Below are positions 4,365 to 46,954 of a stretch of DNA of 47,063 nucleotides, piece by piece; positions within the stretch are counted from its first letter, which is position 1, and the number at the start of each line of letters is the position of its first letter. Where the stretch lies: assembly GCA_021413845.1 (NCBI GenBank), contig JAIOPP010000055.1, positions 1-47,063 on the forward strand, written 5' to 3'. The notes beneath the pieces are model-generated. The model was not told the origin of the DNA. It saw nothing but the letters and a program-made list of their open reading frames with translations, and made no database searches. This DNA is from Planctomycetia bacterium (GTDB taxonomy: Bacteria; Planctomycetota; Planctomycetia; Pirellulales; PNKZ01). Both the position numbers and the translations under genes were made by a program.

Positions 4365-4474
4365 GCCGTTTATTATGCTCGCGCGCCGCGAATCGCACAA
4401 TTTCCGATTTATTCACGACGGCCGGTTAAGAGCCGCCGCCGGCTGCGGTTGGATCTCCGGAGGGAGACACGATC

Positions 4475-5422: not shown

Positions 5423-5461
5423 TTCCGCTCTCTCATCGGTTCTACTTCAAGGAGCTCGATC

Positions 5462-28311: not shown

Positions 28312-29249
28312 ATCAGTTTTATCAAGCCGTTCGTTCCCAAATCGCGAAGGTGGTTTTCGGGCAAGATGAAGTCGTCGATTTCGCCCTGGCGGCCCTCTTC
28401 AGCGGCGGCCATGTCTTGCTCGAAGGGCCGCCGGGAGTCGCTAAGACGCTCCTTGTGCGCACGATCGCCGCGTCGTTGGATTTGAACTACCGCCGCGTGC
28501 AGATGACCCCCGACTTGCTGCCGAACGACATCACCGGCTCGTCGATCTTTCGCCAAGACGCGCACCAATTCGAGTTCCGTCAGGGCCCGATCTTCGCCAA
28601 CTTCGTCTTGGCGGATGAAGTGAATCGCGCCTCGGCGCGCACGCAGTCGGCGTTGCTCGAAGCCATGCAAGAGCTCTCCGTCACGCACGACGGCACGACC
28701 CACAAGCTGCCCGATCCGTTCATCGTCTTCGCGACGCAGAACCCGATCGAGCAAGAAGGAACCTATCCGCTGCCGCTCGCGCAGCTCGATCGGTTCATGT
28801 TCAAGGTGCTGGTCGGTTACCCGTCGGACGAAGAAGAGCGCCGCGTGTTGAACGAGCATCATGCCGGCGGCGGCTTGTCCGACCCGAAGCGGATCGGCGT
28901 CCTGCCGGTGATGGGAGCCGATCAGATTCTCGCGGCTCGTCAAACGATTCGCGAAACGCATGTCCGGCCCGAGGTCACGGCCTATGTGCAACAGTTGCTC
29001 GCCGCGACCCGTCGCGACGATGCGTTCGCCGTCGGCGCGAGCCCTCGTTCCGGGTTGATGTTGCTGATGGGTGCGAAAAGTTTGGCCCGCTTCGCCGGCC
29101 GCGACTTCATCACCCCCGACGATATTCAAACGGCCTTCGTTCCCGCGCTGCGCCACCGCGTGGTCCTCGACCCGACGGCCGAGCTAGACGGCACGACGAC
29201 CGACGAAGTGCTCGGGCAGCTGATGGAAACCGTGGAAGTCCCCCGATGA
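28302..29249 (+). CDS. MoxR-family AAA+ ATPase
   Basis: This is a 315-residue ATPase. I place the start at TTG 28302 because AAGGA lies 8 bases before it and the protein then begins with the usual SLDQFYQAVRSQIAK. The upstream extension to 28257 lacks homology-like sequence. Walker A is GPPGVAKT (43-49), Walker B and the MoxR signature are LADEVNRA (103-110), and sensor and lid residues are in TQNPIEQEGTYPLPLAQLDRF. MoxR ATPases act as chaperones that assemble or activate partner proteins, often with VWA or DUF58 proteins. Its stop overlaps the DUF58 start (ATGA), so the pair is tightly coupled. Confidence 0.93.
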   Translation: MSLDQFYQAVRSQIAKVVFGQDEVVDFALAALFSGGHVLLEGPPGVAKTLLVRTIAASLDLNYRRVQMTPDLLPNDITGSSIFRQDAHQFEFRQGPIFANFVLADEVNRASARTQSALLEAMQELSVTHDGTTHKLPDPFIVFATQNPIEQEGTYPLPLAQLDRFMFKVLVGYPSDEEERRVLNEHHAGGGLSDPKRIGVLPVMGADQILAARQTIRETHVRPEVTAYVQQLLAATRRDDAFAVGASPRSGLMLLMGAKSLARFAGRDFITPDDIQTAFVPALRHRVVLDPTAELDGTTTDEVLGQLMETVEVPR

Positions 29250-30694: not shown

Positions 30695-31718
30695 CGTCGG
30701 CCGTGTCGAGCAGCAGCGCGATTTGTTGCGGCGAGAGTTGCTTTGCCGCTCGTTCGCGCAGTAAACCGTGCCAGATGAACAGCGCCCAGAAGACCGCGGA
30801 ACCGCCGGCGAACCAAAGCCGCGCGGCCGTCGAAAGGTGGCTCTGCCGCAAGAAGCTTTCGATGATCGCCGCGGCGAACAACATGCAAAGCGCGCCCATC
30901 GCGGTCGTGCCGGCTTCTCCGCCGGCGACGCGCAGCGCTTCCGCGCGGGTCTGCAAGCCCGGCGCGAGCACCGCCCTGCCGAGAATGAAACCGGTGCCGC
31001 CGCAAAGGATGATCGCGCCGAGCTCCGTCACGCCGTGCGGCAAGATCCAAGCCCACATTTCGAGATCGATTCCCGCGCGCACGTGAATCGCGACGAACAC
31101 GCCGAGCACCATGCCGTTGTAGATCATCAAGAGCGCCGTCGGCACTCCGACGAGCACGCCCGAGGCCATCGCCAAGATGCCGACCTTGAGATTGTGCGTA
31201 AACAAAAACGAGGCGAAGAGGAACTTCCGGCCTCCCCCTTGGTCGCGCCCGTCGCGCAGTCCTTCCAAAAGTTGTTCATGGGTCGAGCCGGGTTGACGAG
31301 GATCGGCTTGCGGCCAAAGCGCGTAGGCTGCGAGCGGATCGGTCATCGAAGCGAAGTAGGCCAGCCAAGCGCCGCCGATCATCAACACGGCCGAGAGGAC
31401 ATGGCACCGCCAGTTGCGCGCGATCGAGCGCGCGATGCCGTCGAGCAAGAGCGTAGCCAGTCCGGTCAGCATCGAACGTCGCGGCGGCAGATAGATCAGG
31501 CTATGCGCCGAAGCCGTGAGGCTGTTGAGGTAGGTGATCAAGCGGGTGTCGGTGCTGCGCGTCGAGGCTTGCGCGAGGTGGATCGTCGTCCGACGGTAGA
31601 GCACGTCCAACCGGCTGAGCTCTTCGACCGACATCGAACGGAGCGACTTGCGCCCTTTTCGCACGAGCGCTTCGAGTTCGTTCCACGTCGGCTTGTTCCG
31701 CGCGAGAAAACCGCTCAT
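30639..31718 (-). CDS. SpoIIM-family (stage II sporulation M-like) membrane protein
   Basis: This is a 359-residue protein with a GAGGGATC ribosome site. A cytosolic N-terminus (1-80) is followed by six or so membrane segments. The family pattern is clear: FTHNLKVGILAMASGVLVGVPT, then LMIYNGMVLGVF and WAWILPHGVTELGAIILCGGTG (HGVTEL near 230). The name comes from B. subtilis SpoIIM, but outside spore formers these proteins occur with RDD proteins and MoxR/DUF58 clusters. It is divergent from the RDD gene over a 51-base gap, and its last 56 bases overlap the end of the DUF58 gene tail to tail. Confidence 0.88.
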   Translation of the reverse strand: MSGFLARNKPTWNELEALVRKGRKSLRSMSVEELSRLDVLYRRTTIHLAQASTRSTDTRLITYLNSLTASAHSLIYLPPRRSMLTGLATLLLDGIARSIARNWRCHVLSAVLMIGGAWLAYFASMTDPLAAYALWPQADPRQPGSTHEQLLEGLRDGRDQGGGRKFLFASFLFTHNLKVGILAMASGVLVGVPTALLMIYNGMVLGVFVAIHVRAGIDLEMWAWILPHGVTELGAIILCGGTGFILGRAVLAPGLQTRAEALRVAGGEAGTTAMGALCMLFAAAIIESFLRQSHLSTAARLWFAGGSAVFWALFIWHGLLRERAAKQLSPQQIALLLDTADATASSSLSARRSGLPAAR

Positions 31719-32594: not shown

Positions 32595-32622
32595 GCCGGA
32601 CGTCGCCGTCGGGCTACTTTTG
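32594..32622 (+). terminator. Hairpin with T-run between convergent genes
   Basis: AGCCGGACG (32594-32602) pairs with CGTCGGGCT (32607-32615) with one central mismatch, followed by ACTTTTG. It serves the RDD gene and overlaps the stop codon of the facing cyclase gene. Confidence 0.6.
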
Positions 32623-34386
32623 CTTGAGCGTGATCACGCCGTCCCAGCCGCGCGGCGGTTCGGCATGGTGTTCCAACAAGTAAGCGATCAGAAACTCTCT
32701 GACTCGGTCGTGCGTCGGAAGCTCGTAGAGAATCTTCAGCGCGTCCGACCAATTCCCTTCGACGACGGCATCGGCGGCGCTTTCGAATAAGCCGATCTGC
32801 TCGTTGCTCACGGCTCCTTCTTGGTTCGCCGCCGGCAACAGCTCGGCGATCCACAACGGATCGTCCATGCCCGCCGGCCTGACCTTCGCCACTCGCCGCA
32901 CGCGCGCTTCCTCTGGCGGCATCGTCCGGCGCACGTAATCGGCCGTCGCTTCATCGATGAGAATGTTGGCTCGTAAATGTTTCGTCATCGTTTCCAAACG
33001 ACCGCCGAGATTGACCGCGGGTCCGAAGACGCCGACCTTCGCTTGTTGCTGCGGTCCGATTCGTCCGGCGATGGCGCGACCGTGGGCGATGCCGATGCCG
33101 ACGCGAAAATCGGTCAGCACGTGGTTCGAGTCGCGGGCCGCGGCCATGAACTCCGCCGCGATCTCGAGCGCCGTGCGGCAGGCGGCCGCGGGATCATCGC
33201 TCGAGCCGGTGGGCCAGCCCCAGAAGCCGAGCGCAGCGTCACCTTGGAAATCGGCGATGATCCCTTCGTGCCGCACGATCGCATCGGCCATGACTCCGAG
33301 CGCCGTGCCGATCCGTTGGAGCAAGTCGTGCAATTCGCGGCGGGCTCGCTCGGCGCGGCGCGAGAAGCCGCGCACGTCGCAAAACAGGACCGTCACGTCG
33401 GCTTCGCGCGGCGCGAGCACGTCGTCGCTGTGCTGGTTGCGCAGCGCTTCGACGACGATCGGCGAGAAATATTGCGACATCGCTCCTTCTCGCCGTCGGA
33501 GTTGCTGCGATTCGCGGATCGAACCGAGAAACTCCGAGAGCAACTCGGCGAACTTCACGTCCCCCTTCAAGTCGGCCGCCTCGCGCGGACCGCGACCGAG
33601 CAGGTTGGAATCGAACGCGCCGCTCACATACAGACACCAACCCTCGCTCCCCGGATTCGACACCGGAACGCAGAACGCCCAGTCGAGGCTCGTCGACAGC
33701 GTGACGCTCGGGTCGGCCGCGTTGTTGAAGATGTGCAAAATGCTGCAATGCCCTTGCAGCGCCGAGCGGAGCAAGGTGCGGCTCGGCAGCGTGCGCACAT
33801 CGGCTGCGCGGCTCGCACTTCTTAAGAAGACCGGGCGATCGTAGTCGCGCCGCGCGGGATCGGCCCCGACGTTCACCACCACCGCGATCGAAGCCGAGCG
33901 AATCGTCGAGAGCAAGAACTCGGCCAGCTTTTCGGCCGAGGCTTCGGAAGTCATGCCCGAGGCGATCAGGTCGGGAAGTTTCGCCAACTGCTCTAGGCGG
34001 CGCTCGGCGTCGACGAACGCGAGTTGATGTAGCTCCGAGCGCGAGAACGTAAACTCGCAGACGCTCGACAGGCCCGCGACCGATTCTTCGTCGGGCTGAA
34101 TGGTGAACTTCGTCGAGCCGATCGTGAACTCTTCGCCCGGCGATAACGTCAGCTCGCGCACCTTCCGCCCGAAGTACAGTAGCGGGTTGCGAGCCGAATC
34201 GAGACAGCGCACCCGCAGCTCGCGACTATTCCACACCACCTCGGCATGCTCGCGCGAGATGTGGGCATCCCAGGGGATCGCCCAGCCGTTGCGCGGCGCG
34301 CGGCCGATGCAGACCGGTTGCTCGAGCGGCAACGTCTCGCGCAAGAAATGATGAGCATCTAAGCCGCAGATCGTAAGCGTAGCCAT
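32614..34386 (-). CDS. FHA-GAF class III nucleotidyl cyclase
   Basis: The chosen start (MATLTICGLD) gives 590 residues. An FHA domain (about 22-95, IGRAPRNGWAIPWDAHISREHAEVVW) would bind phosphothreonine. A GAF-like sensor region covers about 130-290. The class III cyclase domain (about 325-515) has both metal aspartates (D337 in LFCDVRGF, D383 in FQGDAALGFWG), the transition-state Asn459 and Arg463 (AVNLGGRLE). The residues that usually choose adenine are changed: the Lys position is D379 and the second Asp position is P456. It should therefore make a cyclic nucleotide but its substrate is uncertain. It is the last of six co-directional genes, 44 bases after a decaheme cytochrome gene, and two genes earlier than that set's middle lies a protein with two cyclic-nucleotide-binding domains. 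Confidence 0.87.
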   Translation of the reverse strand: MATLTICGLDAHHFLRETLPLEQPVCIGRAPRNGWAIPWDAHISREHAEVVWNSRELRVRCLDSARNPLLYFGRKVRELTLSPGEEFTIGSTKFTIQPDEESVAGLSSVCEFTFSRSELHQLAFVDAERRLEQLAKLPDLIASGMTSEASAEKLAEFLLSTIRSASIAVVVNVGADPARRDYDRPVFLRSASRAADVRTLPSRTLLRSALQGHCSILHIFNNAADPSVTLSTSLDWAFCVPVSNPGSEGWCLYVSGAFDSNLLGRGPREAADLKGDVKFAELLSEFLGSIRESQQLRRREGAMSQYFSPIVVEALRNQHSDDVLAPREADVTVLFCDVRGFSRRAERARRELHDLLQRIGTALGVMADAIVRHEGIIADFQGDAALGFWGWPTGSSDDPAAACRTALEIAAEFMAAARDSNHVLTDFRVGIGIAHGRAIAGRIGPQQQAKVGVFGPAVNLGGRLETMTKHLRANILIDEATADYVRRTMPPEEARVRRVAKVRPAGMDDPLWIAELLPAANQEGAVSNEQIGLFESAADAVVEGNWSDALKILYELPTHDRVREFLIAYLLEHHAEPPRGWDGVITLKQK

Positions 34387-34430
34387 GAAAGATAATCGTC
34401 GAATTGCGGCGGAACGCGAGTCGCGTCGAA

Positions 34431-35990
34431 CTACTTCTGCTCTATGTCTTTTTCTATGCCTTGCTTTGGGCCCTGCTCTAAATTCTTCTTCTCGAGGAGA
34501 TGCATCAGACTCCAGTCGTTGCGGGCGTCGAGCGGTTGAAACGCGCGATCGAAATACCCGCGCGGTTTGTCGCTCCCGTGGTAGCGGTGGCAAGCGACGC
34601 AATCGGATCGAGCGCCGACGGCACCTCCGGCGACATGCGGCGTGTGGCACTTCGCGCAACTCGCGTAGCCGTCGATCATCACTTGGTCATGGTCGAGCGT
34701 CGGCGTGCCCGGCTTCCACGCCGCGCCGGCCGCGGCATGGCAACCGACGCACGCTACCGATCGGTGCGCGCGATGGTCGAAGCTCGCGTTCTTCAACCAC
34801 ACCGAGGGAACTTCGGTGCGCATCGGCGACGACTTCAGCGGCGAGGCCGCGGCGTCTTGCGGAAACTCGTGGCATTGCACGCACCGATCGCGCAGCATTT
34901 GCTCGGCGCGCGGCAAATGCTTTTGAATCCACGCGGCCGTCTCGGCGGTTTCTTCCTTCGGGCGCTTGCCCGGAAAGCCGAAGCCGGTTTCGTCGTTCGC
35001 ATCCGGCGACTTCGCCTTCACGGCGAGAAAGCGATCGACGATCGCCCCCTTCACGGCCCGTTCCATTTGCTCGGGCCCGAGGCCGTGCGGCATGAGCTCC
35101 AGCTTCGCGTCGACTTCGGCGACCGGCGCATAGGTTTGCGCATGACACGCGGCGCAATGCCGCTCGAAGTTGACGGGCTGCATGTAGTCGCCGTCGTTGG
35201 GCAACTGTGCGCCGGTCGAGACGGATTCGTGGCACGACGCGCATTCGAGCTTTAAGATCCCGGCCGCGCCGACGGCATACGCCGCGTAGTCGGCCCGATG
35301 TTGCTCCGGTAGATCGCTTAGTTTCTTGGGCAACTCGCGATCGTTTTCCAACAGCTTCTGCCCGAGCGCCATGTGGCGCGCGTGAGAGAATTTCAAATGA
35401 CCCGGATCGGGCCCCGCCAACGCCTTGAACTCCGGATGCCCGACGGCGAACGAGTCGATCGCACCGGCGGCGAACGGCGCAGCGCGGTCGACGAGTCGGA
35501 TGTCGCGTGCATGCGCGTCGACATCGCGATGGCAGTTGGTGCAGTTGCCGTCGGCGACGAGCGTTAGTTTCGCGTCGAGCCCGCGGTGCTCTCGATGGCA
35601 CGCGGAGCAAGCTTGCTCTTCGGTCTTGAGGTTCGTGTGGTGTGCGCCGCCGCTGTGGCACTGTTGACATTGAATCACGCCGTGCCGACTCGGACCGCCG
35701 AAGAGCGCAAATGATTCGCCGCTCGTCGGCTCGAACGGCTTGTGGCACGCCGCGCATTGCTTGTCCCACATGGCATGTACGGACGCGACGGGCCCGGGCG
35801 AATGCTGCTTGGAATCGGCGACGAGCCCGAAGGCGGCCCAACCTCCGAACAGCAGCACGGCGACGACGGTCAGGATGAGCTTGATGCGATCGACCGGGTC
35901 GGCGCGGCGATAGTAGGTGAGCGGAATGCGCTCGACGCGCATCTTGCTCGCATACTTCGACGGGTTGTCTTCGGCCGGATTCTGTGCCAT
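34431..35990 (-). CDS. Membrane-anchored decaheme cytochrome c
   Basis: This 519-residue protein has one N-terminal membrane anchor (about 36-57) and ten CxxCH heme c sites in the exported part, starting with CAACH at 79-83 and ending with CVACH near 475. Many His residues between sites (for example GGAHHTNL and FDHRAHRS) can supply the second axial ligand, as in low-spin multiheme cytochromes. The paired spacing of several sites resembles the cytochrome c7/c3-like class. It would carry electrons along a heme chain on the outer face of the membrane. It lies 36 bases after a di-heme b cytochrome gene, its likely electron partner, and upstream of the cyclase gene. Confidence 0.9.
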   Translation of the reverse strand: MAQNPAEDNPSKYASKMRVERIPLTYYRRADPVDRIKLILTVVAVLLFGGWAAFGLVADSKQHSPGPVASVHAMWDKQCAACHKPFEPTSGESFALFGGPSRHGVIQCQQCHSGGAHHTNLKTEEQACSACHREHRGLDAKLTLVADGNCTNCHRDVDAHARDIRLVDRAAPFAAGAIDSFAVGHPEFKALAGPDPGHLKFSHARHMALGQKLLENDRELPKKLSDLPEQHRADYAAYAVGAAGILKLECASCHESVSTGAQLPNDGDYMQPVNFERHCAACHAQTYAPVAEVDAKLELMPHGLGPEQMERAVKGAIVDRFLAVKAKSPDANDETGFGFPGKRPKEETAETAAWIQKHLPRAEQMLRDRCVQCHEFPQDAAASPLKSSPMRTEVPSVWLKNASFDHRAHRSVACVGCHAAAGAAWKPGTPTLDHDQVMIDGYASCAKCHTPHVAGGAVGARSDCVACHRYHGSDKPRGYFDRAFQPLDARNDWSLMHLLEKKNLEQGPKQGIEKDIEQK

Positions 35991-36026
35991 GCGTCGGTTG
36001 CTTGATCGCCCTCGAAAAGATTCGCC

Positions 36027-37130
36027 CTAGAGATACTTTAACGCCACGAAGATATGCACCGCCAGCAAAACGAACAGCGCCGCCGACAACGGCAGATGCA
36101 GCCAGAGCCAACTATGCAGCCGAAAGAACCATTTCGATTGCAGATCGAACTGGCGGCGCTGACGGCAAAGGTCTTCGAGCGAGTCGACCGCGATTTTCGC
36201 TTCCGGCTCGACGGCCGCTTGCAGGTCGGCGAAAAAGCGCGCGGAATAGGTTTGATCGGCCAATCGCGACCGGCTCTTGCGACCCTTCAATAGGTAGTCG
36301 ACGATCACGTCGTAGAACGTGTCGCGCAGCAAGCGTCCGTCGTTCAACACACCGATGGCGCGACGCGTCTCCAGCACGACGCCGCGCACCGCGCCGACGC
36401 GGCGCATCTTGCTCACCACGGCGCCGTCGTTCCCACGATTGCGCCGATTCGGAAACACGAACCGCGAACGATTCTGCGGATCGGGCCCGCAGAGCGCGAG
36501 GATCATGTCTTCGGCGTCCCAAGCGTGGCGCTCGGAGACGTGACCGATTTGCGAATGGATGGTTTCGGCGGGAACCTCGTCGAGCAGAATCTTGGGAATG
36601 ATCTGCTGCGCCACGACTCCATACACACCGCTGACGATGACGATGGAGAAGACGACGACGAGCGTGCTCGTGAGCGGCCCGCCCAAGACGAAGCCGGTAT
36701 GCAAGACGGCGAACGGCACGCAGAGCAGGCCGAGCCAAATGTGCGCGCGCAGCCAAGCCTGAGCGCTGCCGATGCGCCAAGCGCGCACCTTCTTGCGCGG
36801 CCACAGCAGCATCTCGAAGACGATGATCAGTGCGCCGACCGTGCCGTAGATCAAGCCGATCGGGCTGCCGCCGCCGGGGAGCTCGACCGCTTGCGAAGCC
36901 GCGCGGACATAGAATCCGACCGCCGTCAGAGTCGCGACGACGACGAAGATGATCCAGTTACGGTGGCGAGCGAAGTCGCGATAGATGAGCAAGGTGCCGG
37001 TTTCTCGAACAGGACGGCGAACCAACTTCGTCGATGCCGACCACGAGCGATGCCCGCCGCCGGATCGACACGCTGCGAACAGGCGCGGCTCGATTCGAAA
37101 GCCGGCTCGCAGCCAGTATCGACCATGCAT
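36027..37130 (-). CDS. Di-heme b-type membrane cytochrome (ferric-reductase/cytochrome b-like)
   Basis: This is a 367-residue protein with five clear membrane segments. The third contains HIWLGLLCVPFAVLH and the last HLPLSAALFVLLAVH, each with two histidines exactly 13 residues apart (H-x13-H). That pattern binds two stacked b hemes in the cytochrome b and ferric reductase/NOX superfamilies. A soluble insert of about 120 residues, rich in Arg and Asp, separates segments four and five. No FAD/NADPH domain is fused. It would pass electrons across the membrane between the iron-sulfur protein or quinone and the decaheme cytochromes encoded on either side. The start is uncertain: the first 45 residues are basic and poor in pattern, and a TTG at 36992 (LLIYRDFARH) is a possible alternative. 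Confidence 0.78.
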   Translation of the reverse strand: MHGRYWLRAGFRIEPRLFAACRSGGGHRSWSASTKLVRRPVRETGTLLIYRDFARHRNWIIFVVVATLTAVGFYVRAASQAVELPGGGSPIGLIYGTVGALIIVFEMLLWPRKKVRAWRIGSAQAWLRAHIWLGLLCVPFAVLHTGFVLGGPLTSTLVVVFSIVIVSGVYGVVAQQIIPKILLDEVPAETIHSQIGHVSERHAWDAEDMILALCGPDPQNRSRFVFPNRRNRGNDGAVVSKMRRVGAVRGVVLETRRAIGVLNDGRLLRDTFYDVIVDYLLKGRKSRSRLADQTYSARFFADLQAAVEPEAKIAVDSLEDLCRQRRQFDLQSKWFFRLHSWLWLHLPLSAALFVLLAVHIFVALKYL

Positions 37131-37176
37131 AGGGGCTATGTCAAATACGCGGCTCGGTTCGCGCTGCCTCGCGCGG

Positions 37177-40100
37177 TTAGCGCTCCGGCAGACCTGCTTC
37201 TCGTCGCCGGTTCGAAGTCGGGCCCGCGTTCGGGTTCGGCGGCAGGGCTTCGAAATTCAGATAGTCGTAGTGGCGCGGATCGAACGGATCGTCGCTCACG
37301 CTCCAGAGCCGGTTGCGATGCAAGTACATCCGGTGCTGATCGACGGCGCTGAGCGGACCCGCGCCGACCCGACCGAACACCGAGATCTGATTTCCCGACT
37401 CATCAACGGCCCGATCGCGGTCGACCCCTTTGGAGATCGCCAAGGCGCGGCCGCCGCGCGGCAGGCAATACGTCGCGATCAGCTCCGGCGTCGGCCGTGG
37501 GCTGAAGCCGTCGTTGCCCGGCGTCTCGGGCGAGGTCAGCTGCACGATGCGCATCCCGTTGTGGCCGTCGGCGAGATAGGCGAACTCGCTCACGTAGGTG
37601 ATGCCGAGCTTCACGTCGTTGAGGTCGTTGATGCAGCCGCCGGCATCGAACACCTGATCGATGAACGCCGCTTCGGGGTTCGTAATATCGACGATCACCA
37701 AGCCCTGCGCACCGGCCGCGATGTAGGCGTAGGTGCGCGCGAGGTAGATGTTGCGCGCGTCGCGCAGCGGGAGCATCGCGCGCGGAACCGGATGGGCGAG
37801 GTCCGTCATGTCGAGCACCGTGATGCCGCGCCGATCGCAAACGAAGCCGTAGCGAAACTGAGCCTGCATCGCGCGCGGCTCATCGAACACGGCCGAGCCG
37901 AGCACGGTTTCGATCTGCGGACACTTCGGATCGGCAAGCGATACGACCACAAGGCCCGCATCGCAGCAGAGGTAGGCATATGTGCCGACGATCGTGATGC
38001 TGCGGGCGCCGTTGAGGATGCCGTGGGGGTTGAACGTAGCTTCGCGCTTCACGAAGTTGTTCAGCGGGTTGCCGTCGAGCAATGTTCCCGCGCCGACGAC
38101 GATGAGCCCTTCGTAGCGATCCGCGACGTATATGTTCGCATACAGTCCGTGAACTTTCGGCTCGCGATTGGCGGGATCTTGATTGCGCGTCGGGTCGGGT
38201 GCGATGGTCGTCGGTGCAGCGACGGCCGTAGCGAACTTCGTGTTGACGAAGAACCGCTGGCCGACCGGAGAAACCGGCGCCGAGGAGACCCGTTGCGAGA
38301 AGCCCTTATCGTCGACGAACGCGATGTCGAAGATCCGGAGCCCTCCTTCGCCGCACGCGGCGTAGAGATACTCGCCGCGAGCTTGCAGGTTCAAGACTTC
38401 TTCTTGCCTGAGCGGATGCAGCAGCGTGTCGGAGACATCGCGCGCGGAATGGCGATGCCCGTGTTCGAGCAACTTGCCGCGGGCTTGATGTTGTTGGAAT
38501 CGCTCGGGGAAAGCCAAGCTTTGCAGATGGCTGCCGAGCACGGCTTGCGGCTCGTCATTCTCCGTCGCAACGACGCCGTGGAACCCTTCTTCGCCGGCCG
38601 CGACCCAACAGTAGCGTCCGATGAAGTTGACGTAGTTCGTTCCTTGCATCAGCAATTGCGCCATGATGGCGTTGTTGTCGTTCTTGTTCGAGACGTGGCA
38701 ATCGCTGCACATCTTCGTTTCGTTGGTGCCGGGCTTATAGTTCGCCAGCCACTCGGCCAAGGCCGCGGGATCTTTCGGCGGCGTGTTGCCGCCGCGTACC
38801 GTATGCGGCACGTTGGTGCTGAAGGCGATCCCGCTCATGCCGTCGGACGAGATCGTTTGTTGCTGAACGTAGATCGACTCGCGGTTGTTGTTGTACGAGC
38901 CGACATGCACGGCGCACGACGAACGAACCGGCCCGATGCGGTTGCCGGTCACGTCGCCGTCGTGAGCGAGCATGAACACGTCGTCGCGCAAGGTTTGGAA
39001 GTTGTACGAGACGATGTTGCGCGAAACGTCTCCCTCGTTGTGCAAGCTCGGGAGTTTCTTATTGGCCTTCTGCGGCAAGTGGCAGCCGAAGCAGCTCGTA
39101 TTCCACGACGAGTGGCAAGCGATGCAGCTCATCTTCTTGCTCTGATGCGCACATTGATTCTCGCGCGGCATGCCGCCCCACTTGATCTTCGCGTCTCCCT
39201 CGGCCGCGTCGGGTGCGGAATCGTCGAACGTGCGCACCGTCTTGGCGTGGTGCGAGCGCGGGTTGTAGTGTTCGCTTTTCGTATCGATCGTGTCGATCGT
39301 CTGCACGATCTCCCAACGGAGGTTCGTCTCGACCATCGAATTCTGGAAGACTTTGTTTCCTTCGCGCTCGAAACGCTTCCGGCCGTTCGGAGTTCGCATC
39401 AGCTCCAAGTTGCGGCCTCCTTCGACCGACGAAGTGTCCGAAGCCGGGCCCGACGTGCGGAGGAACGAGTCGACGAGCTTGTCTCCTTCGAGCTTCTGAA
39501 ACGGCCGGCGATCCATCGTGCCGTGGCAATCTTCGCATTGAATCTCGACCGCCGCTCGGACCTCTCCGTAGAGTTTCGTATTGCCGTGCGAGTCTTGCTC
39601 GAAGTGGCAATCGACGCAGTGCATCCCTTTTTCCAAATGGATGTCGAGCAAGTGGACGGGAATGTTATCGCGTTGCGGCGGCGGAGCTTTCGTTTCGTCG
39701 ATCGCGTATTGCTTCCGCGACAGCTCGGGCACGGCGATCGCCGCGCGCAGCATTTCGTTCGTCGGCTCGGGCAACACTTCGCCCCGATGATCGAGTATGC
39801 GCCCACTGCGATCTTTCTTAAACACCGCGCGGAAGACCCAGCCGTGGCCGTGATAATCTGCGAACTGCGTGTGGCGCGTTTGCGTGTTCAGATCGGTGAC
39901 GTTTGCTAAGAAGTCCGGATTCGACCATAAGCCGCGCGCCGCGGCTTCATCCGGGTTCGACATCTGCGACTCCGAAAGCTGCTGACTCGTGAGCTGCTTA
40001 CCGACCTTCGGATACATCAACTCCCCGTCGGTTTCTTCGTCCCACCATTGATAACCGGTGAAGCTGTTCAACACCGTCGTGCCGGGATGGATGTGGCAGA

Positions 40101-41349
40101 CGATACACTGGCTCGTCGGAATGGAGTTGCCGGGCGCGAAGCGGTGCATGATCGGATGGCCCGACTCGCTCGGCGAGATCGTCGGATCGGGAGTCGCCGT
40201 GCGACCCATGTTGCCGAACATCGCATAAGGGCCCGAGTTCACCGGCGAGCGATCGTTGGCATAAGGCACGTGGCACGCCGAGCAACCGCTCGAACGGAAG
40301 TCGCCGGGATGATCGTTCGTGCCGAGGAAGTTGAGCGTCGGGTCGAGCAGCCGCGTTTTTTGCAGACCGAGGAATGTCGGATCGGTTCGGTTCTCGGTTC
40401 CTAAGCCGCGGTTGCTGAGCCGCGCTCGAGGCTTGCCGGGAACTTCCAACGGTTCGGGAATGCCCGTGTCTAACCGAAATCTGCCGCCGCGCTCGAAGAT
40501 GCGCAGCACGTTGCCCGGCTGCGAGATCTCGAACCTCGGCAGCGGTTCCAGATACGGCAACACTCCCTTCTTCTCGATCTCTTCTTGCGTCGGCGGCGGA
40601 ACGGTTTGCAGGCGCTGAGGCGACCCGCACATGCTGTAGCTTTCGCCGTAGACGGCGCGCTTGTTGGGAACGGCACCGTTGTTGTAAAGCGCAGCGCCCC
40701 AGAGCATGCAGCCGTGCGTCATCATGCTCTTGCGAACGGCGAGCACTTCCTGCGCATGGCAAGCGCCGCAACTGATGTGGGCGACGCGCAGATCGCCGGG
40801 ATTGACGAAGCGAATGAACTCCGGCGACTCATGGTTGAGCAGCGCATAGGAGCGGACGGGATTTCCCGCCGTCGGCCACGCTTCGGGAAATCGCGCGCCG
40901 ACATGACCTCGTTCCTTGGTCGTCGCCGAGGCATCGCCGCCGTGGCAATCGGTGCAGCCGAGATGCACGGTCGCCTTGGCATGCATATCGCCGACGCCGT
41001 GATGACACTGGATGCAGCCCATCGATTTGTCGGCCGCTTTTTCCACCGTCTGCTTGACGAGCTCTTCCGCGGAGAAGCCCGGCGGAAAAGGAAACGGATC
41101 GGTCTCGGCCACCGGCGGAACCGTTTCCGCAGGGACTTCGGCCGGTGCTTTGAAGCTCGGCAGCGCGCCGAAGAGCGTCGGGCGCGCGGGAACCGCAGGA
41201 GGCTCCGCGCCGTTGCCCGAGCCGGAGCGAAAGATCAACGTCCCGACGACCGACATGCAGACGACGAACAGCAACGCCAAGCGGATGACGAGCGAGCGCG
41301 ACGTCGAGGAGTCGAACGTATCGTTCGCTGACGAAAACCGATTGCGCAT
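37177..41349 (-). CDS. Large decaheme cytochrome c with LVIVD repeat domain
   Basis: The chosen ATG (MRNRFSSAND) has an AAGGATGG ribosome site and gives 1390 residues; a TTG seven codons upstream is less likely. A membrane anchor lies at about 20-39. Ten CxxCH sites follow, from CIQCH (112-116) to CSDCH (near 880). The C-terminal third (about 960-1300) has LVIVD-type beta-propeller repeats, such as YAYIAAGAQGLVIVDITNP and YAYLCCDAGLVVVSLADP. Cytochromes with this fold combination occur in planctomycetes and other bacteria with multiheme respiration, but their acceptors are mostly unknown. The propeller may dock a partner protein or cell surface structure. It is encoded 163 bases after the iron-sulfur/cNMP gene and 46 before the b cytochrome gene. 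Confidence 0.88.
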   Translation of the reverse strand: MRNRFSSANDTFDSSTSRSLVIRLALLFVVCMSVVGTLIFRSGSGNGAEPPAVPARPTLFGALPSFKAPAEVPAETVPPVAETDPFPFPPGFSAEELVKQTVEKAADKSMGCIQCHHGVGDMHAKATVHLGCTDCHGGDASATTKERGHVGARFPEAWPTAGNPVRSYALLNHESPEFIRFVNPGDLRVAHISCGACHAQEVLAVRKSMMTHGCMLWGAALYNNGAVPNKRAVYGESYSMCGSPQRLQTVPPPTQEEIEKKGVLPYLEPLPRFEISQPGNVLRIFERGGRFRLDTGIPEPLEVPGKPRARLSNRGLGTENRTDPTFLGLQKTRLLDPTLNFLGTNDHPGDFRSSGCSACHVPYANDRSPVNSGPYAMFGNMGRTATPDPTISPSESGHPIMHRFAPGNSIPTSQCIVCHIHPGTTVLNSFTGYQWWDEETDGELMYPKVGKQLTSQQLSESQMSNPDEAAARGLWSNPDFLANVTDLNTQTRHTQFADYHGHGWVFRAVFKKDRSGRILDHRGEVLPEPTNEMLRAAIAVPELSRKQYAIDETKAPPPQRDNIPVHLLDIHLEKGMHCVDCHFEQDSHGNTKLYGEVRAAVEIQCEDCHGTMDRRPFQKLEGDKLVDSFLRTSGPASDTSSVEGGRNLELMRTPNGRKRFEREGNKVFQNSMVETNLRWEIVQTIDTIDTKSEHYNPRSHHAKTVRTFDDSAPDAAEGDAKIKWGGMPRENQCAHQSKKMSCIACHSSWNTSCFGCHLPQKANKKLPSLHNEGDVSRNIVSYNFQTLRDDVFMLAHDGDVTGNRIGPVRSSCAVHVGSYNNNRESIYVQQQTISSDGMSGIAFSTNVPHTVRGGNTPPKDPAALAEWLANYKPGTNETKMCSDCHVSNKNDNNAIMAQLLMQGTNYVNFIGRYCWVAAGEEGFHGVVATENDEPQAVLGSHLQSLAFPERFQQHQARGKLLEHGHRHSARDVSDTLLHPLRQEEVLNLQARGEYLYAACGEGGLRIFDIAFVDDKGFSQRVSSAPVSPVGQRFFVNTKFATAVAAPTTIAPDPTRNQDPANREPKVHGLYANIYVADRYEGLIVVGAGTLLDGNPLNNFVKREATFNPHGILNGARSITIVGTYAYLCCDAGLVVVSLADPKCPQIETVLGSAVFDEPRAMQAQFRYGFVCDRRGITVLDMTDLAHPVPRAMLPLRDARNIYLARTYAYIAAGAQGLVIVDITNPEAAFIDQVFDAGGCINDLNDVKLGITYVSEFAYLADGHNGMRIVQLTSPETPGNDGFSPRPTPELIATYCLPRGGRALAISKGVDRDRAVDESGNQISVFGRVGAGPLSAVDQHRMYLHRNRLWSVSDDPFDPRHYDYLNFEALPPNPNAGPTSNRRREAGLPER

Positions 41350-41512
41350 GCTCCATCCTTGTCGCGGCAAATCGCTCGTACGGGGACCGGCGAATGGAGC
41401 TTGTAGTCGATCCCCCGAAATGCGTCAATCTCATGCACTGAAGCCGCGCCATTGCCGGCAACGCCGCCGCGCGCGAAGCACCGCCGGCATTCGCAGCTTC
41501 GAGCGCGGAAGA

Positions 41513-43966
41513 TCAGCCGCGCGAAACGGCCGTCGGGCTGACGAGCTGCAACAGCTCTTGCCCGCTCATGCGAAATGCCGCGTTGTGCGGACAGGCGTAG
41601 ACGCAGCTCGTCGCTTGGCTTGCCGGCACCACGTCGCGACACAGATCGCACGTCGTCGCTTTCTGCGCCTTGATCGACGAGCCGTTCTCGAGCGGGTGCA
41701 TGTTGATGTTGCCGTACGGACAGTTGCTCGCGCACAGACCGCAGCCGATGCAATGGTCTTCGATCACGATCTCGAGCGAGAGATCGGAGTTGTCGCGCGG
41801 TCGACGATGGATCGCATCCACAGGGCAGCCGACTAGACAATACGGATCCAAACAAGACCGACACGAACTCGCGACCAAGAACTTATCGAAGCGTAGCCCT
41901 TCGCGAATCAGCCGCGTTACCCCTTCGTGCGTGTCCGAGCAAGCGCGCGTGCATTCGTCGCAACGGGTGCAGCTTTCCAAGTCGAGCACCAGCAGCTTGT
42001 TCGCGTTGAACAAGCCTTGCGACAAGAACTGGTCGAGCGGTTGTTCGATCTTCGTGCGCGCGGCTTCGTCTTGAGCCAGCATGCGCACGGCGCTCTCGAC
42101 GAGCAACTCCGCGGCTTGCGGAGAAGTCTGAATCAGTTGCCGAAAGTGCTCGCCCCGAATGCGCACGAGCTCGACGTCGTCCAATGCCGAGCAAGTCGCG
42201 GTGCGCACGCCCGACGTAAAGCCCGCCGGGAAATGCTCCGACGCGATCGCCTTCACGCTCGACAACAGGCCGATCTCGCCGAAGCTTTTGCCTGGGCCGA
42301 GGTAATCGACCACGCGCGTCTGTCCGCGCACGGTCTGCGTTACTTTGACGAAGCCCAAGCGCACGAGATAGAAATGGTCGGCCGGTTCCCCTTGATGAAA
42401 AATCTCTTGGCCCGGATCGACATGCACGAGCTCGACGTTCTTGCGCAACAGCTCGATGCACCGATTGCGGGTCACGTCGTCGAACTGCTTGAACATCGGG
42501 ACGCGCCGCAGCTGATCGGCCAACGCGTTGCGGCGATAAGCGCGATCGAGCAAGTTGCGCGCAGTCCGATCGCGCTGCAAGTAGAACAAGATGTTGCGAT
42601 TGATCTCGAGCACTTCGCCGACGGTCTTCGCTTGCACGGTCGCCGAGCGCGGGTAGTGGCTCATGCACGTCATCTCGCCGACGATCAGATCGTCGCTCGT
42701 CGCGATCGCGACGACCTTGTCTTCATCTTCCGACTCGCGCTTGGCGCGCGTCGTCAGCTTGCCGAAGAAGCGGCCGAGGCCCGACGTCGGTTGCTTCTCC
42801 AACCTCGACGACGGCCGGACGCGAATCTCGAACTCGCCGTTGATGATGATGAACGCCGTGTTCCCGGGATTTCCTTGACGACATAAAACTTCGCCGGGCC
42901 GAACGCGTCGTCGTTGCACGGCGCCTGTGTTCCATTGCAGAAACTTGAACGGCACGCTCGAGAACAACTCGTACTTCTTGATCTCTTCGGCTTGCAAGAT
43001 CTCGCAAGCCGTGTCGCCGTCGGCCGGTTCCTCTTCGTCCGCAGAAGGCGCGGGCCGCTGCTTGAACGTGAGCGCGTCGGTCGGACAACTCACCATGCAT
43101 TCGCCGCACGACACGCAATTCGACGAGCCCATCGGGTCGTTGAGGTCGAAGCCGATGTGCGTCGAATAGCCTTTGCCGGCTCGGCCGATGATGTCGTTGT
43201 GTTTGACTTCCGTGCAAGCGCGCACGCACCGGTCGCACAAGATGCAGGCCGCGTGGTCGACGGCGATGAACGCCGAGGAGTCGTCTTGCTTTCGTTCCAG
43301 CACGCGCGAAGGAAACCGCGGCTCGCCGATCCCGAGCTTACGGGCGAGCGACATCAGTTCGTTGCCGTGATCGAGCGTCGAATCGCCGGACGTTGCGAGC
43401 GCTTTCCGCTGCACCGATTCGATTTGCGGCTTCGTCAAATGGTCGGCCACGAGCAACTCGGTCAACGTCGCGACGGACGAACGAATCCGTTCGCGCGCTT
43501 CTTCATTCGGAGAGTTCAACGTGTGAACTTCCATCGTCTCTTCCACGCGATGCTGACAAGCGGGGAGCAGCTTCCGCTCGCGTTGCACTTTGCCGCGCTT
43601 CACCTTCCAGATCTCGACCGAACAGAGCCGGCAGACCGCGACCGGATCGAGATGGTCTTGATGACAAAGAATCGGAATCGGGTTCTTATCGCCTAGCTTC
43701 TGCACGTAGAGCTTGCTCGTCGCATCGTAGATCGTCGTGGCGCGAGGAATCGGCCGACCTTGCGCATCGCGGCGGATATTGCCTTGCGCATCGGTCGCGG
43801 GCACGGCTTTCGGAACCGTTACCTCGCGCGAATCGATGACGATCGTGATCGACTTCTGCAAGTCGTCGGCCACGACTTGATCGAGGCGCACGAGTTGGCC
43901 GTCGATGTCGCGCGCGAAGAGGCTTTCTTCTTCGATGACGGTGACTTCGCGATTCCCGTCGCTCAT
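41513..43966 (-). CDS. Iron-sulfur protein with two cyclic-nucleotide-binding domains
   Basis: This 817-residue cytosolic protein has an AAGGTGGAAG ribosome site. In order it contains a NuoG-like [2Fe-2S] domain (C101, C112, C115, C137), two [4Fe-4S] sites (C241/244/247/251 and C284/287/290/294), two cNMP-binding domains (about 338-465 and 488-630), and a DmsB-like four-cluster ferredoxin domain (16 Cys from C666 to C792). Seven clusters are expected. Both cNMP domains keep the phosphate-cassette Glu and Arg (E431/R440 and E564/R588), so binding is plausible. It would take electrons from the NuoE-NuoF fusion encoded 50 bases upstream and pass them on toward the cytochromes. The sensor domains sit between the input and output clusters, which suggests gating by a cyclic nucleotide (inference). 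Confidence 0.9.
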   Translation of the reverse strand: MSDGNREVTVIEEESLFARDIDGQLVRLDQVVADDLQKSITIVIDSREVTVPKAVPATDAQGNIRRDAQGRPIPRATTIYDATSKLYVQKLGDKNPIPILCHQDHLDPVAVCRLCSVEIWKVKRGKVQRERKLLPACQHRVEETMEVHTLNSPNEEARERIRSSVATLTELLVADHLTKPQIESVQRKALATSGDSTLDHGNELMSLARKLGIGEPRFPSRVLERKQDDSSAFIAVDHAACILCDRCVRACTEVKHNDIIGRAGKGYSTHIGFDLNDPMGSSNCVSCGECMVSCPTDALTFKQRPAPSADEEEPADGDTACEILQAEEIKKYELFSSVPFKFLQWNTGAVQRRRVRPGEVLCRQGNPGNTAFIIINGEFEIRVRPSSRLEKQPTSGLGRFFGKLTTRAKRESEDEDKVVAIATSDDLIVGEMTCMSHYPRSATVQAKTVGEVLEINRNILFYLQRDRTARNLLDRAYRRNALADQLRRVPMFKQFDDVTRNRCIELLRKNVELVHVDPGQEIFHQGEPADHFYLVRLGFVKVTQTVRGQTRVVDYLGPGKSFGEIGLLSSVKAIASEHFPAGFTSGVRTATCSALDDVELVRIRGEHFRQLIQTSPQAAELLVESAVRMLAQDEAARTKIEQPLDQFLSQGLFNANKLLVLDLESCTRCDECTRACSDTHEGVTRLIREGLRFDKFLVASSCRSCLDPYCLVGCPVDAIHRRPRDNSDLSLEIVIEDHCIGCGLCASNCPYGNINMHPLENGSSIKAQKATTCDLCRDVVPASQATSCVYACPHNAAFRMSGQELLQLVSPTAVSRG

Positions 43967-44016
43967 AAAACTTCCACCTTTTCAATATCTCGCCGACGAC
44001 CGGATCTCGAACCTAA

Positions 44017-45753
44017 CTAGCTGCGAGCGAACGACGCGACATCTTCCGGGAAATACTTCAAAACCGACGTCAGCGGCTTCGGTGCGACGACGCCGAGGCC
44101 GCAGATGCTCGTCAGCTCCATGGCTTGCGCCAAGTCGGCAATGACCGGCTCCCACGATGCGGGCTTCGCGCGCGACGCGGCTTGGTTGCGAAACGAGGCC
44201 GCGATCTCGACCATCTTCTGCGTCCCGATCCGGCACGGCACGCACTTGCCGCACGACTCGTTCCGAAAAAACTCCAAACAGTTCAGCGCATGATCCAACA
44301 TGTTCGAGCCCTCGGCATACACCATCATGCCGGCTCCGAGCATCAGGCCCATGTCGCGCGAGCATTGCAGGTCGAGGGGGAAGTCGCGAATGTCGTAAGT
44401 CGGGAGCTTTGTCGCCAGCGTCTTCTCGACGAACGATTTCGGCAGCTTCTCTTGCCAGCCGCGCGAAAGCTCGGCGAGCGGCAACGTGGCAGGCACGAAG
44501 CCGCCGGAAGGGCCCGACAGCGCGACCGCTTTGAGCTTCCCCGCCATGCCGCCGGCGAAATCGTCGATCAGCTCCCCGAGCGTGATGCCGCACGGCACTT
44601 CATACGCGCCGGGCTTGCGCACGTCGCCGCAGATCGAAAAGAAGCGGGCTCCGCGACAGCCGGGCCTACCGAGATCGCGATACCATGCGCCGCCGTGGAT
44701 CGCGATCGATGGCACCCAAGCGAACGTCTCGACGTTGCTCACCAAGGTCGGCTTGTCGTAGAGTCCGTTCGTTTCGAGTTGCGGCGGTTTGTTGCGCGGT
44801 TGCGCACGGCGATCTTCCATCGCTTCGATCAGCGCGCTCTGTTCGCCGCAGATGTATCCGCCCGGACTCTCGAACACTTCCAGAAAGAACGGCCGACCGG
44901 AGTTGAAGACGTTGGCTCCGCAGGCGCCGAGCGCTTCGGCCCGATCGATCTCGTGCTGCACGGCTTCGATCTGTTCGTGGTACTCATGGCGAACGTAGAC
45001 GTAGCCGCGCGTAGCGCCGGTGAAGAGTCCGGCCAAGATCATTCCTTCGACGATCAGATGCGGCGTGCGCAACAACAGCTCGCGATCCTTGAACGTGGTC
45101 GGTTCGCTTTCGTCGGCATTACAGACGATGAACTTTTGATCTCCGGCCGTGTTGCGCACGTCGGTCCACTTTTGATGGGCGGGAACTCCGGCACCACCCA
45201 TGCCGCGCAGGTCCGAGTCCTTCAGCTGCGCGGCGAAACCATCGGCATCGGCGTTCGCCAAGAAGGCGCGCGCGGCACGATACTCCGGCTTGCCTTGGTA
45301 CACATCGCAGAGCCAAGGTTGCGGCGCATGCCGAGCCTGGGAGTCGTCACGATCGTGAGCGGGTTTCGTTCCCGCGGCGATCGCCTTCGCCGTGTCGGCT
45401 AGGCGAGCCGCATCGCAGTTCACGTACAGCCGACCGTTCACCGTCGCCGCGACCGCACGATCGCACCGACCCAAACAGGAGACGGGCCGCACCGCGACGT
45501 CGCGCGAGCCTTCCGGAAATTGTCGTTGGAGTTCCTCGCGCATCAACTCGCCGCCGCGCAGATGGCAAGCCATGTCGTGGCACACGAGCACCTCGACCTT
45601 CGGGCCGGGCTCGAGGCGGAAGTGGGGGAAGAAGCTCGCGACTTCGTTCAGCCGGTAGAGCGGAGTGCCGAGGCGATGCGAGAGCTCGTGGAGTTCGTCT
45701 TTCGGCAAGAAGCCGTGTCGTTGCTGAATTTTATGCAACTCTTGGACGATCAT
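44017..45753 (-). CDS. NuoE-NuoF fusion, NAD(P)H-oxidising flavoprotein
   Basis: The chosen ATG (MIVQELHKIQ) gives 578 residues. A GTG at 45798 lies between the promoter -10 and the likely transcript start, so it is rejected. Residues 1-120 are NuoE-like with [2Fe-2S] ligands C58, C63, C93 and C97. Residues about 150-578 are NuoF-like: the FMN/NADH pocket RGMGGAGVPAHQKW (from 183), CNADESEPTTFKDR (211-224), ESPGGYICGEQSALIEAMED, and the [4Fe-4S] site SCGKCVPCR (from 500) with C551 in ICGLG. The protein would oxidise NAD(P)H and feed the iron-sulfur protein encoded next. There is no Nuo, hydrogenase or formate dehydrogenase gene nearby, so the electron partner is unusual. A good promoter precedes it. 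Confidence 0.93.
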   Translation of the reverse strand: MIVQELHKIQQRHGFLPKDELHELSHRLGTPLYRLNEVASFFPHFRLEPGPKVEVLVCHDMACHLRGGELMREELQRQFPEGSRDVAVRPVSCLGRCDRAVAATVNGRLYVNCDAARLADTAKAIAAGTKPAHDRDDSQARHAPQPWLCDVYQGKPEYRAARAFLANADADGFAAQLKDSDLRGMGGAGVPAHQKWTDVRNTAGDQKFIVCNADESEPTTFKDRELLLRTPHLIVEGMILAGLFTGATRGYVYVRHEYHEQIEAVQHEIDRAEALGACGANVFNSGRPFFLEVFESPGGYICGEQSALIEAMEDRRAQPRNKPPQLETNGLYDKPTLVSNVETFAWVPSIAIHGGAWYRDLGRPGCRGARFFSICGDVRKPGAYEVPCGITLGELIDDFAGGMAGKLKAVALSGPSGGFVPATLPLAELSRGWQEKLPKSFVEKTLATKLPTYDIRDFPLDLQCSRDMGLMLGAGMMVYAEGSNMLDHALNCLEFFRNESCGKCVPCRIGTQKMVEIAASFRNQAASRAKPASWEPVIADLAQAMELTSICGLGVVAPKPLTSVLKYFPEDVASFARS

Positions 45754-45800
45754 CCGCGGTTCCGCGCATCGGTGACGTAAGACTAGACCTGAGCGCACAC

Positions 45801-45829
45801 ATCCTAAAGGCGGTTGAAGCCTTGGTCAA
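45801..45829 (-). promoter_or_regulatory. Sigma70-like promoter of the redox operon
   Basis: On the minus strand TTGACC (45824-45829) is followed after exactly 17 bases by TAGGAT (45801-45806). The predicted transcript would begin near 45794, about 40 bases before the ATG of the NuoE-NuoF fusion gene. Confidence 0.6.
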
Positions 45830-45902: not shown

Positions 45903-46382
45903 CTATAGGCGTACGTCGATGGCTCTTAGAAAATCGAGCGGCGAAAGCCACTGCACGTTCAATGCAGTACAGGCGTCCGGCATCTTCGGCGGTCGAGTGC
46001 TTTTCGGTGGATTACTAGCCTTCCTTTCGTCCGTCACCAATACCGCCTTTTCGGCCTTGGCGCGTGCGATCACCCACGGATCGCTTGCGTTCGGCGCACC
46101 ACCGGAGGCGGCGAAGTTTGGAAACCGAGACATGACCTCTTGCATTTGCCAAATCACGGTCTCATCAGGCGGTACGAACCATCGCTTTCGCGCCTTTGCC
46201 CAGCGATATAGTTCATCCTGCTGCATCGTTAACTCGTCGAGTACTTCCGCGCATGAGAACACTTCATTTGTTCCCATGAGAGTTTCCAGTTTAGTCCAGA
46301 TGGCAGGAAACACATCTGGAGCATAATGACGATGCCAACCATTGATGAAGAAGCTTGTATCAAGGCAAAACAACTGAGCCAC
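45903..46382 (-). CDS. DUF4411 PIN-type toxin, predicted ribonuclease
   Basis: It starts at GTG with AAGGG before it and has 159 residues. The opening LFCLDTSFFING supplies the first PIN-domain Asp, FSCAEVLDEL a conserved acidic position, DPWVIARAKAEKAVLVTDE a second acidic cluster, and the end returns to a strand (LNVQWLSPLDFLRAIDVRL). This matches the DUF4411 family, related to PIN RNases that cleave RNA and act as toxins. The gene is five bases after an ImmA/IrrE-like gene, the known antitoxin partner in this pair. Its GC is clearly lower than the surrounding backbone, which suggests horizontal transfer. Confidence 0.85.
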   Translation of the reverse strand: MAQLFCLDTSFFINGWHRHYAPDVFPAIWTKLETLMGTNEVFSCAEVLDELTMQQDELYRWAKARKRWFVPPDETVIWQMQEVMSRFPNFAASGGAPNASDPWVIARAKAEKAVLVTDERKASNPPKSTRPPKMPDACTALNVQWLSPLDFLRAIDVRL

Positions 46383-46387
46383 GTTCG

Positions 46388-46954
46388 CTACCCTTGCTTT
46401 CGCGGATGCACCATTGTCGGATACAATTTGCCAAGCAGTTTCGGAACGTGCTTAAGCGTTAACCCAATAAGGCCTGTCAATTGGCCACCATGGATTTCGC
46501 CTGTAGTGTACGCGGAGAGGACTGTTTTACAAAACGATTGCCCGTAGCGAGATAACGCGAATTCGTGACGCGGTATTGCTCCGCCCGATTTCTTTTGCGA
46601 TTTGATTTTCAACAGTTTCCATGTCTTTCGCAACCAGTCGCGATCTGCGAAACCACATTCTACCAATCGAATTGCAATAACCTGTCGGCTGACCTTGTAT
46701 CTAGTTGCTAACTCTCCAAGAAATATTATGCCTCGACTTTGCCAATTACTTGGAACATATTGAACGAAATCGTCGCAAGGAACGATTATCTCGGCGGCAA
46801 CCGTGTTGCAAAACTTCTCGATACGATTCTTAGCCGATCTAACTACTCCTTCTTTTCCGCCTGCGTCGATCGTTGAAATGCCGAGCGCTAAGTGAACTAG
46901 TTCGTGCAAGAGCGTGAATGTTCTAGAAGCAGTTACAAAACTTCGTGTTGCTAG
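46388..46954 (-). pseudogene. ImmA/IrrE-family metallopeptidase, 5'-truncated
   Basis: The frame encodes the zinc motif HELVH in TFTLLHELVHLALG, then RIEKFCNTVAAEIIVPCDDF, typical of ImmA/IrrE peptidases of the Xre-ImmA antitoxin type. An in-frame TAG (46955-46957) lies only about a dozen codons before the motif, and there is no ATG. The usual helix-turn-helix and first part of the peptidase domain are missing. A TTG at 46909 could only start inside the zinc motif. It is therefore most likely a remnant, cut near 46950-46980 by the GC-rich sequence to the right. If the antitoxin is lost, the toxin gene at 45903 should be silent, tolerated or also damaged. Confidence 0.7.

Follow-up and report, generated by a model that had tools for sequence, protein, structure and literature searches.

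A planctomycete gene locus predicted to encode part of an NADH-fed trans-envelope electron conduit with a built-in cyclic-nucleotide sensor

The DNA analysed here, referred to as the window, is a 47,063-nt stretch corresponding to contig JAIOPP010000055.1 of assembly GCA_021413845.1, from a Planctomycetia bacterium (Pirellulales; PNKZ01). It contains six minus-strand open reading frames (ORFs) spanning positions 32614-45753, named A-B-C-D-E-F in order, with A at the high-coordinate end. They encode predicted redox proteins and a nucleotidyl cyclase, and one of them, B, combines iron-sulfur clusters with two cyclic-nucleotide-monophosphate (cNMP)-binding domains. An earlier note on this DNA (the original prediction) had described six genes in this order, all on one strand and separated by 36-163 bases, and the ORF coordinates agree: with the starts as assigned, the gaps are 50 (A/B), 163 (B/C), 46 (C/D), 36 (D/E) and 44 bases (E/F). 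The genes are presumably co-transcribed. The end of the locus had been set at 45829, which is the first base of a promoter-like hexamer match and no gene end; A starts at the ATG at 45753, and the A proteins of three other stretches (L002, L003 and L112) begin there or nearly so (MIVQ). Promoter-like matches occurred near the chance level (three found, 1.8 expected). The start of F was placed at codon 92 (ATG) of its listed ORF. The features are listed below, with the evidence for each in brackets.

44017-45753, minus strand: gene A, NuoE-NuoF fusion (Pfam, PDB relatives, conserved Cys)
41513-43966, minus strand: gene B, iron-sulfur protein with two cNMP-binding domains and seven predicted clusters (Pfam, NCBIfam, alignment)
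43058-43681, minus strand: B residues 96-303, NuoG/HoxU-like part, 2Fe-2S plus two 4Fe-4S, not in short relatives (NCBIfam, PDB relatives)
42533-42931, minus strand: B residues 346-478, cNMP domain 1, with invariant Cys362 and Cys434 (alignment)
42638-42679, minus strand: phosphate-binding cassette of cNMP domain 1, GEMTCMSHYPRSAT, with G430, E431, R440 and A442 (84/84 long sequences)
42089-42448, minus strand: B residues 507-626, cNMP domain 2, cassette GE...RTAT (alignment)
41579-42001, minus strand: B residues 656-796, DmsB-type four-cluster ferredoxin part (Pfam, NCBIfam)
37177-41349, minus strand: gene C, decaheme c-type cytochrome with C-terminal LVIVD repeats (Pfam, CxxCH conservation)
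36027-37130, minus strand: gene D, di-heme b-type membrane protein, predicted (conserved His pairs, helical model)
34431-35990, minus strand: gene E, decaheme c-type cytochrome with a hydrophobic N-terminal stretch (CxxCH conservation)
32614-34386, minus strand: gene F, FHA plus class III nucleotidyl cyclase (Pfam, catalytic residues)
34117-34311, minus strand: FHA domain of F (Pfam)
32929-33411, minus strand: cyclase catalytic domain of F (Pfam, residues)
45801-45829, minus strand: weak sigma-70-like promoter match upstream of A (near chance level)

Conservation was assessed in 84 stretches. Besides the window and three stretches of relatives, these are 80 B loci, the best 80 of 135, retrieved from genome contigs; two of the stretches (L114 and L115) overlap on one contig, so one protein is counted twice. 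The peptides used to fetch B did not cover the nucleotide pocket. By record title, the loci belong mostly to Planctomycetota and Acidobacteriota, with one from Actinobacteria and one from Methylomirabilota. There are also shorter B relatives, of 498-764 aa by ORF, in which the NuoG-like part is missing and the cNMP and four-cluster parts are present; 15 of these were aligned as well.

The prediction of seven clusters in B is borne out, its 28 cysteine ligands each being kept in 80-84 of the 84 long sequences. Both cNMP-binding domains were recovered, with a PF00027 score of 117.2 bits over two stretches, above the gathering cut-off of 27.5. The phosphate cassette of cNMP domains reads Gly-Glu ... 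Arg-x-Ala, and its residues are retained in B. In domain 1, G430, E431, R440 and A442 are present in all 84 long sequences, and among the short ones, which share 26-45% identity with B, the Gly, Glu, Pro and Arg are found in 15/15 and the Ala in 14/15. In the second domain of the long proteins, E564 and A590 are kept in 84/84 and R588 in 81/84. The ferredoxin part holds 16 cysteines, each present in 15/15 short sequences, and Pfam recognises C-terminal 4Fe-4S repeats there. Two other cysteines, C362 and C434 (window 42665-42883), lie outside recognised cluster motifs; they are invariant in the 84 long sequences and occur in 10 and 11 of the 15 short ones, respectively, and may possibly act as a redox switch of the nucleotide pocket. 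The cNMP fold also occurs outside transcription factors and kinases in the acetyltransferase Pat and in family 2B encapsulin, to which the cNMP region of B gave NCBIfam matches below cut-off. Neither is an electron-transfer protein, unlike the predicted role of B, and we know of no cNMP-gated electron-transfer protein elsewhere.

The NuoE-NuoF fusion assigned to A was borne out by its Pfam domains (2Fe-2S_thioredx, Complex1_51K, SLBB and NADH_4Fe-4S), which make up an NADH/flavin mononucleotide (FMN) module with one 2Fe-2S and one 4Fe-4S cluster. PDB relatives are the NADH-oxidising HydB, NuoF and HoxF chains. The four N3-type cysteines are found in 76/76 aligned sequences and the four NuoE cysteines in all 67-68 ungapped ones. 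The score of A lies below that of the complex I NuoF equivalog TIGR01959 (350.7 against 558.65 bits). Oxidation of NADH by A is a well-founded prediction, because the NuoF/HydB-type FMN and NADH motifs and the cluster cysteines are kept. The NuoG/HoxU-like part of B likewise falls below the curated scores (HoxU, 101.2 against 333 bits; NuoG, 56 against 470.05 bits). A His-Cys3 4Fe-4S cluster belongs to the NuoG/HoxU type, and neither the sequence nor the alignment of B contains its cysteines. A and the N-terminal part of B thus match the diaphorase modules of NuoEFG, HoxFU, HydBA and NAD-linked formate dehydrogenase, from which B differs in the missing His-Cys3 cysteines, in having no recognised catalytic domain and in its fusion to two cNMP domains and a DmsB-type ferredoxin. 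Several loci contain a short B together with D and E, or with C and a barrel protein (P9, described below), and no labelled A. Because of these loci, in which B has no NuoG-like part, the NADH module appears to be optional, the core probably consisting of the cNMP-ferredoxin, the b cytochrome and the decaheme protein, with NADH as one possible electron source. As separate observations, a further cNMP-ferredoxin variant of 717-729 aa occurs in two stretches with no labelled D or E adjoining (L118 and L119; genomes G019 and G028), and the window's own genome (G000) gave no second match to the NuoG-like part of B at E <= 0.001, while many relatives have one.

The assignment of D as a di-heme b cytochrome is supported by two pairs of histidines, each 14 residues apart on two modelled helices: H130/H144 (57/58 sequences) and H345/H359 (58/58). 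With the additional H56 and H339, these residues would be enough for two b hemes, possibly a third, in a helical model with a mean predicted local distance difference test (pLDDT) score of 82.9. The Pfam score for Ferric_reduct (PF01794) was 17.8 bits against a cut-off of 28, PepSY_TM was likewise below cut-off, and a search of PDB sequences with the D of the window gave no match at E <= 0.1. In the VIA structure comparison, STEAP and NOX chains appeared at Z 5.0-6.9 among unrelated helical proteins; because these scores equal those of unrelated helical bundles, we do not claim a NOX/STEAP fold for D. The second decaheme protein, E, proved to be as described, with a Cytochrome_C7 match and ten CxxCH motifs, each found in 55-58 of 58 sequences.

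C also has ten CxxCH motifs, all of them in 32/32 aligned sequences, together with LVIVD repeats (59.7 bits, cut-off 20.2), in agreement with its description as a decaheme-LVIVD protein, and a hydrophobic N-terminal stretch that may be a signal or an anchor. No PDB sequence matched a relative of C (stretch L178) at E <= 0.1. Membership of C in the ExtM family was considered and rejected, as it scores 79.3 bits against a cut-off of 800 (NF040943) and has 10 hemes, against 12 in ExtM (PMC5877670).

C is tied to a protein of about 690 aa, P9, whose model has 18 strands of at least ten residues and whose best PDB match is AlgE (E 1.4e-15). The terminal residue is F, Y or W in 33/34 P9 proteins, and P9 would be located in the outer membrane. 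When 392 genomes of the phylum were searched, the 38 with C (cut-off E <= 1e-60) were exactly the 38 with P9 (cut-off E <= 1e-40). B, long or short (E <= 1e-60), was found in 24 of the 392, and 22 of these 24 have C and P9, compared with 16 of the 368 genomes without B (Fisher p = 1e-23 for B and C, ignoring the relatedness of the genomes). In 50 B genomes the fetched stretch contained no C; 46 of them carry it elsewhere (E <= 1e-40), sometimes just outside the stretch. P9 and C adjoin in many genomes, a barrel tied to a multiheme cytochrome as in porin-cytochrome systems. Recurring companions in the gene maps are P9, the HbpS-like H6 (PF03928), which often adjoins P9, a tetraheme C554-type protein, a pentaheme protein and a GH63-like protein (f12). 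In the window's own genome, P9 and H6 lie side by side and divergent on another contig (C33), at 1374-3500 and 3550-5745 (L127), and tetraheme and pentaheme proteins related to the system are encoded on contig C90.

F was originally described as an FHA-GAF cyclase; the FHA and Guanylate_cyc domains were found, and Pfam showed no GAF domain at E <= 0.1. The class III cyclase profile (PF00211) scored 40.4 bits against a cut-off of 21.9. Class III cyclases have two metal-binding Asp and a transition-state Asn and Arg, all of which are present in F and in the 22 aligned cyclases from near the system. The base-specifying position is Asp in F, and Asp in 14 and Lys in 8 of the 22. Lys at this position marks adenylyl and Glu guanylyl cyclases. 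Cya2, a guanylate cyclase in the wild type with E488 there, makes cAMP as the E488K variant (PMC5995499). To count cyclases around B, we took 69 of the 80 loci (19 picked for a nearby cyclase and 50 others), whose genomes contain 237 cyclase places (E <= 1e-8); no labelled cyclase was seen in the remaining eleven loci. Cyclases lie near B in 19 of the 69 loci, against 0.66 expected from flank lengths; the Poisson probability of 1e-21 overstates the certainty because related genomes are treated as independent. Around C, at least six cyclases were found within 10 kb in 45 genomes, against 0.63 expected, four of them outside the B count and two inside it.

The arrangement of these cyclases varies widely: D-E-F stand on the same strand in L025, L027, L028, L054 and the window, and the cyclase is divergent or convergent elsewhere. 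Ten near cyclases were scanned for domains, giving one FHA-GAF protein, three with GAF or GAF_3 (some weak), two with CHASE2 and four with none recognised. A tree was built from 66 catalytic domains, 22 of them near the system and 44 far from it; on this tree the near label required 12 changes, at least 7 of them on well-supported branches, against 18.6 after shuffling; the near cyclases are thus clustered and of several origins. The far sequences are mostly best matches, which favours the subfamily of the window's F, some long branches are unsure, and two sequences labelled far adjoin system genes, L125 being beside the C90 tetraheme gene and L146 about 1.4 kb from C. A conserved orthologous partnership of F with the system is not supported by this tree. 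Separately, a third cyclase of the window's own genome adjoins the tetraheme and pentaheme proteins (L202, G000:C90, 7590-13085).

Parts of the locus recur widely. A stands directly before B in 76 of the 84 stretches and D adjoins E in 57; C is present in 21 and an F-like cyclase in 20; because many contigs are short, absences are soft. A-B and D-E are recurring cassettes, and A, B, D and E are present in records titled Rhodopirellula sallentina, Roseiconus, Rubripirellula, Neorhodopirellula and Tautonia. The genes are part of a larger system in Planctomycetota and Acidobacteriota. As for the six-gene order expected in other genomes, none of the 83 other stretches has it, and nine hold all six families within about 22 kb or less in various orders, a grouping beyond chance. 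Among 57 relatives, six have a long B, the window's own genome being one of the six.

We propose that this putative operon encodes the portion of a trans-envelope electron conduit that belongs to the inner membrane and periplasm. Electrons from NADH would enter at the FMN of A and follow the iron-sulfur clusters of A and B as far as the b hemes of D, from which they would cross the inner membrane and reach E, the anchored decaheme protein. From E, further heme proteins could pass them to C, which would work with the outer-membrane barrel P9 encoded elsewhere in the same genome. Along the chain of B, the cNMP pair lies between the NADH-side, NuoG-like clusters and the ferredoxin-type clusters that would face D. 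Because of this position, a nucleotide-driven change could alter the inter-cluster distance in B, and a cyclic nucleotide from a neighbouring cyclase such as F would most likely open or close this joint, thereby setting the flow. Judged from sequence and models, the chances that the system is an NADH-fed, cyclic-nucleotide-regulated trans-envelope conduit are about even. A more tentative suggestion, with the balance somewhat against it, is that cyclic AMP (cAMP) or cyclic GMP (cGMP) directly gates the flow from NADH to the exterior at the two CRP-like domains within the seven-cluster protein, and that in planctomycetes and acidobacteria class III cyclases of different lineages, with different sensors (FHA, GAF, CHASE2), were recruited for it more than once. 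The original prediction that flow between NADH and exported hemes is adjusted by a nucleotide made by the last gene stands in part: the redox route, the kept pockets and the proximity of cyclases favour it, and F as a conserved partner is not supported.

Several observations weigh against this proposal. The second cNMP domain is degenerate in the more distant of the short relatives, the Glu being kept in 10/15 short sequences and the Arg in 11/15. Two of the 24 B genomes have no C (G169 and G201), 16 of the 38 genomes with C and P9 have no B at the cut-off, and 4 of the 50 B genomes whose fetched stretch has no C show none elsewhere. P9 lies outside the window, on a 7.2-kb contig that cannot be joined to it, and its model has a mean pLDDT of 57.7, the barrel part being mostly at 70-90. 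Foldseek found no PDB fold match for D at E <= 0.001. The six-gene order fails as a conserved unit, the window alone having it among the 84 stretches. The three same-genus genomes are without a long B, so the locus looks like an accessory trait. Turning to the cyclases, the window's F groups with 26 that are labelled as not near the system, its closest relatives in the tree being among those not near; cyclases at E <= 1e-8 are missing from 4 of 50 B genomes; and in 20 stretches around C or B the sole labelled cyclase is in L190, by contig number and length the same place as L054.

Some of these points would fit a redox chain that is real and without cyclic-nucleotide control, the cNMP folds serving as structural linkers or binding another ligand and the cyclases being incidental or having other targets. 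The subfamily of the window's cyclase lies mostly elsewhere in other genomes, stretches around C and short B rarely have a cyclase, and the B genomes in which no cyclase was seen point the same way. We nevertheless find this rather unlikely, given that domain 1 retains its cassette Gly, Glu and Arg throughout the long and short sequences, some of the short ones only 26-29% identical, and that cyclases near B exceed expectation by far and belong to several lineages. A chain running inward, in which an outside donor is oxidised at C and NAD+ is reduced, as in a lithotrophic or electron-uptake system, would use the same heme order, which works both ways, and NuoEF-type modules are reversible; because the NADH module is optional in the loci, the core would not be tied to NADH. 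With a normal membrane potential, however, flow outward from NADH is downhill and flow inward to NAD+ is uphill as a general principle, and Pfam and NCBIfam recognised no pumping subunit among the six genes, which makes the inward direction distinctly improbable.

It is also unlikely, in our judgement, that C is a surface terminal reductase acting on a soluble acceptor (an oxyanion or an organic compound), as has been suggested for Geobacter Ext, instead of a wire to a solid. The sub-threshold match to ExtM, a cytochrome of a selenite/tellurite operon, speaks for it, as does Ext itself, which also pairs a barrel with multiheme cytochromes and in which loss of the ExtI barrel lowers selenite and tellurite reduction (PMC5877670). 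On the other side, Pfam and NCBIfam recognised no active-site signature in C, and the ExtM cut-off is far from being reached.

Multiheme trans-envelope conduits are known, and what would be new in the conduit proposed here is the NADH input, C, the barrel and, above all, the cNMP pair. In Mtr and Pcc the input is a quinol oxidase, whereas here it would be NADH through NuoEF, and MtrB-type barrels are larger than P9, which models as an 18-strand AlgE-like barrel. Shared features with Mtr, Pcc and the Verrucomicrobia clusters (PMC5615132) are a barrel combined, in all genomes examined here, with a multiheme cytochrome, and inner-membrane and periplasmic heme proteins alongside; the fusion of ten hemes with LVIVD repeats in C differs from all three. 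The Verrucomicrobia clusters pair an octaheme protein with a porin having at least 20 predicted transmembrane motifs (PMC5615132). Geobacter extHIJKLMNOPQS likewise encodes a barrel, several multihemes and a b cytochrome, and C weakly resembles ExtM; Ext has a Rieske protein and the 12-heme ExtM, and NuoEF and cNMP domains are missing from the gene list in its description (PMC5877670). The claim that no complex of this combination had been described agrees with our search, in that none was found among the matches listed in the open-licence PMC literature.

The remainder of the window contains other genes. Beside the putative operon, positions 45903-46909 encode a PIN/DUF4411 protein and an M78 (ImmA/IrrE-like) protein, possibly a toxin-antitoxin pair. 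DUF4350, DUF58 and SpoIIM genes stand together in an ordinary-looking cluster at 26950-31718, and a 1339-aa protein with several PDZ domains is encoded at 21071-25090, where the surrounding stretch reaches 71% G+C. Two large minus-strand ORFs (13756-17736 and 19441-21003) have no Pfam match at E <= 0.01.

Control of respiration by a cyclic-nucleotide sensor that is built into an iron-sulfur protein halfway along the electron route would be unusual. If the proposed conduit is real, a diffusible signal would act on the electron path itself and allow fast control of respiration without transcription. It would also provide a defined candidate electron-export system for planctomycetes and acidobacteria, which are common and poorly understood bacteria of soil and water, with a list of modules that could be searched for and tested in cultured species.

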